In this document: in pieces, positions 2,191 to 6,666 of the stretch
Layout: each line of letters starts with the position of its first letter
How positions within the stretch are numbered: position 1 is the first letter of the stretch
From: Pyrococcus kukulkanii
GTDB lineage: Archaea > Methanobacteriota_B > Thermococci > Thermococcales > Thermococcaceae
NCBI RefSeq assembly: GCF_041647995.1
Contig: NZ_JARRIB010000005.1
Coordinates: 124,001 to 188,000, forward strand
Reading direction: 5' to 3'
Length of the DNA stretch: 64,000 bases
Notes under the pieces: generated by a model
What the model saw: only the letters and a program-made list of their open reading frames with translations
Told to the model about the DNA's origin: nothing
Databases searched by the model: none
Position numbers and translations under genes: made by a program

Positions 2191-5100
2191 TCAGGAAATA
2201 ACGCACTTGCTCCATCCGCAGACTGGACAGGTTGCACAGCCGCTTTCCATCTTCAGCTCAACCAGCTTTCCTTCCTTCTCGTAACACACTGGACAGTAGA
2301 CTACCCCCAATAACTCCTTTATCTTCTCCTCTGGAATCTCCTGGGGCTTAGCCTGCCTCTGCTCCACCTTACTCGAGACTGGCTTATTCAGCTGGAGTGA
2401 GAAAGTCAACTGCTCGCTCCTGCCGTTGAGTATGTTGTCTATGTTCACAAAGTTCTTTATCCATGGCTCCTTCTCCACTATCTGGAGGAGGATCTTCTTT
2501 GCATATTCACTAGGCTTCGGCTTGAACCTCCTCTTCTTCTCACCCTCAACGCTATACACCTGGACGGAGAGTGAACCATCCCTGTAAACGGTTACACCCT
2601 TGCAACCAAGGAAGTACGCGAAGAGGTACGCAGCTTTTACGTCCTCAACCGTGGCTTCATTTATCATGTTGATCGTTTTGCTTGCGGAATCCGTAAGCCA
2701 CATCTGGATGCTCGCTTGGGCCAAGATGTGATCGAGCCAGTGAATATCTAAGGCCGTGACAAATACTTTCCGCATATCCTCGGGAATCTCCTCTATTCCC
2801 TGCACTGAGCCGTAGTTGTCGCTGATCTTCTTCAAAAGTTCTTCACTGTAGAGGCCCCTCCTCTTAAGCTCGGCCTCGAAAACGGGATCGACGTAGTAGA
2901 ACTCTCCCACGGTAACTGATTTCTTGTAGACTAAAGCGTACACTGGCTCAATTCCGCTTGAGGTATCTGCAATCATCGAAACTGAGCCTGTCGGCGGGCA
3001 GGTTGTTACCATTGCATTTCTAACGCCGTACTTCTTTATCTCCTCAACCAGCTTGTCCCAAGGTAAGTTCCAGATCTCCGGGTGGTAGTAACCCTCGACT
3101 GGGAGTTCGCCCCTTGGATAAGCAGACTTCTCGTAGAGTGGGAAGGTCCCCCTCTTCTTTGCTGCCTCAATTGAGTACTTGTAAGCGTAGAAGGTTAAGT
3201 ACTCGGTAACCTTGCGCATGAACTTGAAGCCTTCTTCGCTGTTATAGGGTATGCCGAGTTTGAACAATGCATCGGCTAGGCCCATTATTCCAACGCCGAT
3301 TCTCCTCGTGAGCTTGGTGTTGTAATCGATCTCTGGGAGAGGGAACTTGTTAACATCGATAGAGTTGTCAAGGTACTTCGCAACTTTTTGAATGACGTAA
3401 GCGTACTCATCCCAGTCGAAGTACGGCTTTCCGTTTTCATCGTACTTAACGAACTTCGCGAGGTTTATGCTCGCGAGATTACAGGATTCGTACTCGTAGA
3501 GAGGCTCTTCTCCACAGTTCTTGCTTATTATTCCGTTGGCTACATATTCGTGGACTTCCTTCATGGTAAGAGTATAGACCATCTGCTCTCCCGCTTTCTC
3601 AACGCTAATGACCTTTCTGCATTCACCGCCGTAAATTTCAACACAGTCTCCTTCCTTTAATTCCTTGAGCTTTACATAATTACCGTTAACTTTAACCTCG
3701 TGATCTTCATCTCCTATGAGCTCCCTCCCATCCTCGAGCACTATCTTTATTGTTGGCTTAACTCCAACTTTCCATACATAAGCCTCGACTGGCCTTCCAT
3801 TTGATGCTATAATCTTAATAGGGCTCAGATACGCTACTTCCTCCCCGTCCCTTCCTAAGGCCCCTTTGTCAATGACCTCCAATCTTTCAATGTTTTCATT
3901 CTTGGCCAAGGTAAATAATTCCTCGATTGCAATTTCTCCCTTCTCTGTGAGCACTCTAGTGCTTCCGACGACACACGGGTTAGTAGCCCTTATCGGTCCA
4001 CCTTTAGCCTCCTTAAGCACGTTTCTCCTGTTTACCACGTCAAAGAATATAACTCCTGGGTCAGCCTTGCTCCAGGCCATGAACGCTAGCTCCTCAAACA
4101 GGGACTTTGGATCTACCTCCCTAACGACCTCCCCAGTCCTGGGGTTTATTAGGGGGTACTTTTTGCCCTCCTTAAGGGCCTCCCAGAAGTCCTGCCAGAT
4201 GCCAACGCTTATGTTGAAGTTAGCTAAAACGTTCGTCCCAATGTTCTTTTCCTTAGCGTGGATGAACTTTTCGATATCTGGGTGCCAAATCTCCAGAATG
4301 CCCATATTTGCGCCCCTGCGAACTCCTCCTTGTTTGATTACGTCACTAACGGCATCTATGAGGTGCATGAACGAAACAGGGCCACTATTGGACGTATAAA
4401 TGCCGTTCCCTGTGAGAAGGTGGACATCCTCAACTTGGATATCGTAAACTCTCTGGACTCCAAGAGGTTCTATTTTGGATATCCTTACTGGGTAGAGCTT
4501 TGATAGCATTGTAAAGTACTCGACTTCCTCCTCATCAAGGCCAAGCTCATCCTTTAGCTCAAGTACTCTCCTTATGAATGCTCTGTGTGTAACTTTAGAG
4601 TTGTACGAAAGGAGTTTGTAGGTATTTTGAATCTTAGCCCGAATTTCGGGTCTTTTAATTTTGTATATGGCATTAAACGGGAAGGAGTACTTCTTGTTCT
4701 TTCCACTCTCTCCCAGCTCTGCTACTGCTTTTTCTCTGATTTTTGCAAGCTTAACGGACTCAGTAAGTTTTTCAAAAGCCTTTAGCTTCATATCCCTAGT
4801 CTGGATTCTGAGGGTGTATACCTTTCTGTGACCATTCTCCTTAGGCTCATATTCTTGTATGCTCGTAACAATTCCAAGTGCCATGAAGAGAAGCTGAGCC
4901 TCCTTAATGAAACGCTCTGAAATAGACTTAATGGCAATCCTATAGTGGTGGTCTATGGTTCCATCTCCATCAAAGAACCCAGCCAAGAATGCTGCCATGA
5001 CGCTTGGCTTGCTCCGGAAGATTAATTCGGGAACCCCTATGTTCTCTGATTTGTCTTTGCTAAGCCCATTTGCCTCAAGGAACTTTACAATCTTTGTAGA

Positions 5101-6666
5101 AGGTATTACAAGTGTTACCTTATGCTGATCTTCTCTAACAAACTCCTTTGGCTCAATACCAAAGATCTCCACGAAGTACCTTTTTACTTTTTCTTTAATT
5201 TCTTCTTCGCTCGTGTTTAGGTATATTTCAATCTTCGAGTTCTTCCTTCTACCGTTCTCATAGTAATGCCTTATATGACCGTCTGCATAGATTATTCCAA
5301 TTAGATACGCCAGCTTCTCATCGAGGATATTTGGTAGCTTAACATCGTGACCATTGCTTTTTAGCTCAACGTTCGTGTTGACCTCTACATATGGAGCATC
5401 AAACTCATCAGGCGCTAGGATGTAGATATAGTCGCCCTCTTTAAGTTCCATTAAAGGTTTAAGGACTGGATTACCATCTTCATCAAAGACTAAGAACTTG
5501 TGCTCCTTGGTGACTTTAACTTCATATCCATCTTCAGTAATAATCCTAAAGACCTCCATCTCCCCATTGTCGTATTTCTCCACTACTCTCTTGACTCCCT
5601 TATGGGTAATTATCTTTGGAGTAGAGTTAGTTTTCACGAGTTCCTCGATAGGAATGAATCCCCTGTCGGTCAGTATCCTGGTATCGCCAGTAAAACATGC
5701 TGCCCCAGTTGTAGTTCCAACTATATCACCCTCAGGCCTGAGCTTGGAGAAGTTCATTCCAGTACCGCCACCAGCCTTCTGAATCATCGCAACGTCGTGA
5801 GCAGCTTTCATTATGCTCTCCATGTCATCCTCTATCGGCACGACAAAGCAGGCTGAAAGCATCCCAAGGGGTCTTCCCGAGTTAATTAACGCGGGAGTGT
5901 TGGGCATGAAGACTTGGTTTGTCATCAGTCTGAAGTACTCCTCTATCTCCCTCTCGTACTTGTCGAACTCTCCCCTTTCAAGCATTCCCAGGAACTCGTC
6001 AATAGAAACCTTCATCTTGCCCTTCTCCGCGAGCTCCCTGTAGAGGTTGACCATCCTCTCGAAATGGTACTTGTTCAGCTTGTACTTCCCGATAGAATAC
6101 TTCCTATCGAACTTCTCGAAGTTCTCGAGATAGTATTCAACCCTCTTTAAGTCCTGCTCATAATTACCGTCCTTGTCGAAAACCCTCTCATCGTACAGGA
6201 GATCAGGAATTACCGCGAGGATTGCAACCCTCTCAAATAATTCCCTGGGGCTCTCCACTATGTTCCCGTTCTCATCCCTCATTAGGTACCTCGATGCTAG
6301 AACCCTAAGGGCGTTTATTGAGAACCTTTTGTCTATCTCATCCAGCTCCTTCTTGTTGAGGATCCTCTTCTTTTCCTCCCTTATTTCAGCCTTCTTCTTT
6401 CTATAAAGGATGTAAGCCTTTGCAACTTCAAAGAGTCCTGCACGCATTAACTCCAGTTCAACTATATCCTGAATATTCTCTATGTGTGGTATTTTTCCAT
6501 CATAGAGCTCGTTGATCCTCTTGACTATATTCTTCACGACCTCATCGAGCTTCTTCTCATCTCTGACTCCAACTTCCCACATTGCCCTTTGTACAGCCCA
6601 CCTTATACGTGACTCATCGAAGGGAACTATTCTGCCATCACGTTTCATCACTTTTTCAACTGCCAT
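2191..6666 (-). CDS. nrdJ: Adenosylcobalamin-dependent (class II) ribonucleotide reductase with two inteins
   Basis: The precursor has 1491 residues; removing two inteins leaves about 903. It reduces ribonucleotides using coenzyme B12. The N-terminus is an ATP-cone ([16 protein letters not shown]). Extein marks include LSACFVVPI (first redox Cys), the split NPCGE active site with the thiyl Cys and Glu, [10 protein letters not shown] (second redox Cys), [21 protein letters not shown] and a C-terminal [12 protein letters not shown], a redox or zinc cysteine cluster. I chose ATG at 6666 because GGGGTG lies just upstream; a GTG at 6672 is part of that site. Intein 1 follows TTGAA and intein 2 follows NP. 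It is a single gene with no clear operon partner. Confidence 0.97.
3517..3975 (-). other. Intein 2 of NrdJ (153 aa mini-intein)
   Basis: The element starts with Cys in [20 protein letters not shown] and ends [11 protein letters not shown] before the Cys of the C-extein CGEEP. A block B-like GDEDHEVKV is present, followed almost at once by the C-terminal splicing blocks, so no endonuclease domain is present. The +1 Cys is also the catalytic thiyl Cys of the NPCGE motif, so the reductase cannot be active before splicing. The residue before the terminal Asn is Lys, not His. Confidence 0.93.
4387..5697 (-). other. Intein 1 of NrdJ (437 aa, with LAGLIDADG endonuclease)
   Basis: The intein begins at Cys ([13 protein letters not shown], block A) and ends GNGIYTSN before a Ser of the C-extein (SGPVSF). 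Block B is seen in VTKEHKFLV. Two dodecapeptide motifs, [13 protein letters not shown] and [11 protein letters not shown], show a homing endonuclease of the LAGLIDADG type that looks intact. The residue before the terminal Asn is Ser instead of the usual His. The insertion point, TTGAA/SGPVSF, corresponds to a known intein site in Pyrococcus RIR1 genes. Confidence 0.93.

Follow-up and report, generated by a model that had tools for sequence, protein, structure and literature searches.

The class II (B12-dependent) ribonucleotide reductase NrdJ of Pyrococcus kukulkanii is encoded as a precursor with two inteins. The second, a mini-intein of 153 aa placed directly ahead of the putative radical cysteine, is very probably a functional class 1-type intein that excises itself autocatalytically and represents an old, endonuclease-free and occasionally mobile allele of its insertion site (NP^CGEE, the caret marking the junction). 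The precursor is a single unbroken frame within the window, the whole stretch of 64,000 nucleotides that was analysed, and an extein of 903 aa remains after removal of both inteins. Its parts are:

2191-6672, minus strand: nrdJ, class II ribonucleotide reductase precursor with two in-frame inteins, 1493 aa (open reading frame and profile matches)
5698-6672, minus strand: N-extein, aa 1-325 (intein-less NrdJ genes match up to residue 325)
4387-5697, minus strand: intein 1, aa 326-762 of the precursor, a LAGLIDADG homing-endonuclease intein of 437 aa, GAA^CFTG...YTSN^SGPV, penultimate Ser (translation and Pfam)
4780-5001, minus strand: best LAGLIDADG_3 stretch of intein 1, ORF aa 558-631 (Pfam, E 5.6e-22)
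3976-4386, minus strand: middle extein, aa 763-899, ending IRATNP (ORF translation)
3517-3975, minus strand: intein 2, aa 900-1052 of the precursor, the 153 aa mini-intein, TNP^CVVG...ISKN^CGEE (translation, profiles, AlphaFold2 model and Foldseek)
3514-3516, minus strand: +1 Cys, with which CGEE begins (alignment to T. maritima NrdJ, residue 322)
2191-3516, minus strand: C-extein, aa 1053-1493 and stop codon (ORF translation; alignment to 1xje)

The precursor matches the NrdJ_Z profile TIGR02504 with 728.9 bits (cut-off 400) as well as the ATP-cone and Ribonuc_red_lgN/lgC profiles, and in an alignment to 1xje (E 5e-64) the C-extein begins opposite residue 322 of T. maritima NrdJ. We take the latter to be the thiyl-radical cysteine, as Larsson et al. 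reportedly found in 2004. The profile score and the catalytic cysteine motif that splicing would restore together point to a class II NrdJ. The original prediction had placed a 437 aa LAGLIDADG intein and a 153 aa endonuclease-free intein in this gene, the second dividing NP from CGEE with the catalytic cysteine at +1, and had noted that Ser and Lys respectively stand where a penultimate His is usual; all of this was borne out, the boundaries to the base. Just upstream of nrdJ, the reading frame at 6868-9129 on the minus strand encodes a large membrane protein containing the motif WWDYG; judged by eye, it is probably an STT3/AglB-type oligosaccharyltransferase.

Intein 1 has the splicing blocks of a LAGLIDADG homing intein, LAGLIDADG_3 is matched in two stretches, and two LAGLIDADG motifs (12 and 10 residues) are present, from which DNA cleavage is predicted. 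In the Thermococcaceae NrdJ genes surveyed a full intein occupies this site in 13 genomes, and all 13 end in SN; the ending of intein 1 and its 12 relatives is Thr-Ser-Asn throughout, with the penultimate Ser fixed. A third insertion site, at extein position 303, holds 14 inteins that end in HN. In a close relative within Pyrococcus (genome G005, L048:2908-4212), NrdJ carries a 435 aa intein, QGG^CVSI...LVHN^VRRG, in an open frame with Val rather than Cys, Ser or Thr at +1 and Glu replacing the block B His, and its canonical splicing should not be possible.

The only Pfam and NCBIfam matches within intein 2 are to splicing domains. No LAGLIDADG or other nuclease domain was found in it with these profiles, the LAGLIDADG domains being confined to intein 1, and it is accordingly a mini-intein. 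Its AlphaFold2 model (pLDDT 88.8, pTM 0.85) finds solved inteins as best matches in a Foldseek search of the PDB (E about 1e-9), and a HINT fold is thus predicted with confidence. Alignment of the 11 mini-inteins (minis) found at this site gives the following residues, with block positions named as in PMC4031507:

3973-3975, minus strand: Cys1, N-terminal nucleophile, invariant in 11/11 minis (alignment)
3709-3711, minus strand: Asp89, block B position 7 (B:7, usually Thr), invariant in 11/11 (alignment)
3700-3702, minus strand: His92, the block B His (B:10), invariant (alignment)
3643-3645, minus strand: Cys111, invariant (alignment)
3619-3621, minus strand: Cys119, invariant (alignment and AlphaFold2)
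3571-3573, minus strand: Thr135, block F position 4 (F:4, usually Asp), invariant in 11/11 (alignment)
3550-3552, minus strand: His142, the block F His (F:13), invariant (alignment)
3520-3522, minus strand: Lys152, penultimate residue (G:6), Lys in 7/11 and Arg in 4/11 minis (alignment)
3517-3519, minus strand: Asn153, C-terminal residue, predicted to cleave the C-junction by cyclising (alignment)

All 11 minis have the Cys1, the Asn153 followed by a +1 Cys, and the His92 and His142 of class 1 inteins. Thr at B:7, Asp at F:4 and His at G:6 are common in that class without strictly defining it, and all 11 minis lack these assisting residues, having Asp, Thr and Lys or Arg instead; the substitutions at B:7 and F:4 had not been part of the original prediction. 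That all three positions depart from the usual residues counts against functional splicing, and some inteins without a penultimate His are said, in work of Chen et al. from 2000, to splice poorly or not at all. A class 3 identity was rejected, since Cys1 is present and F:4 is Thr rather than the class 3 Cys of the WCT motif. Cys111 and Cys119 occur in every mini, whereas in 30 of the 33 full inteins at NP^CGEE Cys1 is the sole cysteine. In the model Cys111 lies in a short strand and Cys119 immediately ahead of the next long strand, with a short turn between the two.

In the proposed mechanism, Cys1 would form a thioester at the N-terminal junction, the +1 acceptor would be the radical Cys of NrdJ, and cyclisation of Asn153 would leave NP joined to CGEE in an active enzyme. 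Two lines of evidence argue for splicing. The dN/dS of the minis is about 0.06-0.15 (pairs with unsaturated dS) against about 0.02-0.09 for the extein, values that point clearly to purifying selection on the minis. Secondly, four mini-bearing genomes listed as 99% complete (G073, G086, G092 and G093) encode one NrdJ each, and a Pfam search of their assemblies gave no match to the class III reductase NrdD. The mini-bearing NrdJ is therefore the only reductase found in these genomes and a failure of splicing should be lethal there, so that the mini presumably splices both with a penultimate Lys (G073) and with a penultimate Arg (G086, G092 and G093). The suggestion that the mini was kept because the enzyme is essential is thus better supported in these relatives than in P. 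kukulkanii, whose genome also encodes NrdD and in which NrdJ may not be essential. The mini probably persists because precise loss is rare, and imprecise loss or failed splicing would wreck the catalytic site.

The history of the site was followed in nrdJ stretches from Thermococcaceae genomes together with a few contigs from a public collection, with inserts identified from alignments of every open frame to the 903 aa extein. Among the 78 NrdJ genes of the tree, 33 carry a full intein at NP^CGEE and 11 a mini, while in the other 34 the site is empty. A wider count that includes fragments gives 37 insert-less genes, 36 of which read TNPCGE straight across the junction with the 153 residues absent, in keeping with the insertion claimed by the original prediction. 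The full inteins all end in HN (33/33), whereas the minis are all exactly 153 aa long and end in KN (seven) or RN (four). Chance is excluded, as 11 genomes share an in-frame insert of this length at one and the same boundary between codons.

The minis and the full inteins of this site separate into two clades (support 100/100), with 32-46% identity between them (mean 38%). The mini clade spans five genus groups, so that any loss of an endonuclease would be ancient and earlier than the spread to these groups. For the same reason a local deletion of the endonuclease from a Pyrococcus full intein was rejected. The claim that the mini must have lost its endonuclease therefore stands in part: none is present and loss is plausible, but the mini is an old monophyletic lineage rather than a local derivative. 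Hitch-hiking with the inteins at sites 325 or 303 was also rejected, as minis occur with the former, with the latter and alone. A search of 115 genomes of the same phylum outside the Thermococcaceae found no relative of the mini. Spread by viruses or plasmids was rejected because none was found in the viral contigs and plasmids searched; the one match in phages was a stretch of 34% identity in what is annotated as a Vibrio phage terminase.

The state of the mini changes at least nine times on the extein tree, five of these changes being forced by the starred branches, and the exteins of G024 (mini) and G021 (full intein) are 99% identical. Between G020 (genus g3) and G073 (g4) the mini shares 89.5% aa identity and the extein 83.8%. 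Synonymous differences in this pair amount to 0.35 in the mini and 0.51 in the extein, where the lowest window of that size has 0.42, and between G091 (g5) and G093 (g6) to 0.20 and 0.46, respectively. The relation is inverted in control pairs taken from other genera (mini 0.57-0.61, extein 0.49-0.52), and the low divergence of the minis in the g3-g4 and g5-g6 pairs is therefore not due to generally slow synonymous change. Taken together, the minis appear to have crossed genera twice, and their scattered distribution and cross-genus similarity indicate that the mini sometimes moves. The g3 minis nest within the g4 minis with moderate support, but a single clade of the two g4 minis is not rejected by an AU test (p 0.097), and the g3/g4 transfer may have run in either direction.

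One account of this movement, possible though somewhat unlikely, is ordinary homologous recombination of a segment of the host gene, which requires no endonuclease. It sits poorly with the host codons flanking the site, since mini-bearing g3 genes are no closer to g4 there than mini-less g3 genes, although later recombination could have erased the tract. Of the 36 codons that can be compared between G020 and G073 up to 20 codons from the site, 21 are different, which is unlikely at the rate of the mini (p about 0.004); the same test is weaker for G020-G082 (p 0.027) and not significant for G024-G073 (p 0.19). The transferred piece, where testable, is thus little more than the intein, clearly so for G020-G073 only. 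A likely route is that the endonuclease of a full intein breaks an empty site and a mini-bearing template is used in the repair, which would explain movement with short flanks. Full inteins of this position should also be unable to cut a site that the mini already fills. A tentative and rather unlikely extension of this idea makes the mini a satellite of the full intein: lacking an endonuclease, it would be protected by filling the target, spread through the break that the full intein makes in empty nrdJ genes, and splice by means of the rearranged active site (Asp B:7, Thr F:4 and Lys/Arg G:6).

Strictly vertical descent from an ancestor of the family, in which the mini was never transferred but was lost or replaced many times independently, is improbable. 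The mini subclades do roughly track the genera and the extein backbone is weakly resolved, but such descent fits poorly with a mini that is far less diverged at synonymous sites than its host gene in the g3-g4 and g5-g6 pairs and more diverged in the controls, and with g3 minis placed, with moderate support, inside those of g4.

Whether the mini acts as a conditional switch, as the original prediction proposed, is a separate question. Its splicing would then be gated by redox state, through Cys1, Cys111, Cys119 and the +1 Cys, or by heat, and NrdJ would be active only under suitable conditions. The sole specific support is the invariant Cys111/Cys119 pair, which makes such a role possible; the position of the insert on the catalytic residue would suit it, and there are precedents for redox-sensitive precursors. 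The PolII mini-inteins of P. abyssi and P. horikoshii form or appear to form a disulfide between Cys1 and the +1 Cys in the precursor, and both need heat for splicing in vitro, that of P. abyssi also reduction (PMC8175363). Against this, any protein of a hyperthermophile may be expected to depend on heat, which by itself does not amount to regulation, the cysteine pair in the turn may merely stabilise the fold, and 34 relatives keep the same enzyme with no insert at the site, leaving a switch decidedly improbable. A decaying intein 2 that no longer splices, with dNTPs supplied by NrdD, would fit the non-canonical residues at B:7, F:4 and G:6 and the NrdD gene of the host, but is highly improbable given the purifying selection, fixed length and invariant nucleophiles of the minis and the four mini-bearing relatives with no NrdD match.

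Mini-inteins are expected to pass mainly vertically, or horizontally together with the host gene (PMC4071816). The lineage described here coexists with full and empty alleles in one family, and seems to have passed between genera taking along little or no flanking host sequence. An intein system of three alleles (rock-paper-scissors) has been modelled (PMC3229294), and the mini, full and empty alleles of NP^CGEE would be a natural case of it, open to experiment, in which the mini is the occupied, nuclease-free allele. The fixed Asp, Thr and Lys/Arg active site would also test which assisting residues inteins need, in a setting where failure inactivates the host enzyme. Mini-inteins of Pyrococcus, inteins at NP^CGEE of NrdJ and inteins without a penultimate His are already known; no report of a mini-intein lineage at this site was found in the literature searched, which covered few subscription journals.

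The genome of P. kukulkanii is rich in inteins, with 13 matches to the intein N-terminal family, and one of its other inteins (L155, G000 C2:208500-213000) likewise has a penultimate Lys (LLVKN^S). Its NrdD, encoded outside the window (L147:423-3428, minus strand; G000 C1 about 558222-561227), contains an intein of roughly 380 aa with the junctions SYAM^CLYK...VTHN^CCRI, directly ahead of the CCR motif. In T. maritima NrdD both cysteines of this motif are needed for activity, the C329A and C330A variants being inactive (PMC4493059). Both reductases found in the host genome are therefore interrupted at essential cysteines.

The closest known relatives of the mini are the full inteins of the same site (Pyrococcus RIR1, about 382-385 aa), which share its insertion point, its +1 Cys and a homologous splicing domain (AYVWKVG and neighbouring motifs). 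They differ in having a LAGLIDADG domain, Thr at B:7, Asp at F:4 and a penultimate His, and are about 38% identical in the splicing domain. The PolII, RadA and CDC21 inteins of P. horikoshii and P. abyssi are also natural mini-inteins in DNA-metabolism proteins of Pyrococcus, and the predicted fold of intein 2 matches 6rpq, 6rpp, 7oec, 2lcj and 4e2u in Foldseek; unlike intein 2 they occupy other host genes and sites, with 18-25% identity in the Foldseek alignments. Other residues at G:6 do occur in natural inteins, some of which splice (reviewed in PMC4031507), whereas in the minis Lys or Arg at G:6 accompanies Asp at B:7 and Thr at F:4, a combination fixed across the clade. The intein of A. 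aeolicus NrdB (R2) lies between metal ligands in the catalytic core of ribonucleotide reductase (PMC8772380). It resembles intein 2 in interrupting the catalytic core of this enzyme and differs in residing in subunit R2, in its length of 346 aa, in its endonuclease and in having been demonstrated to splice.
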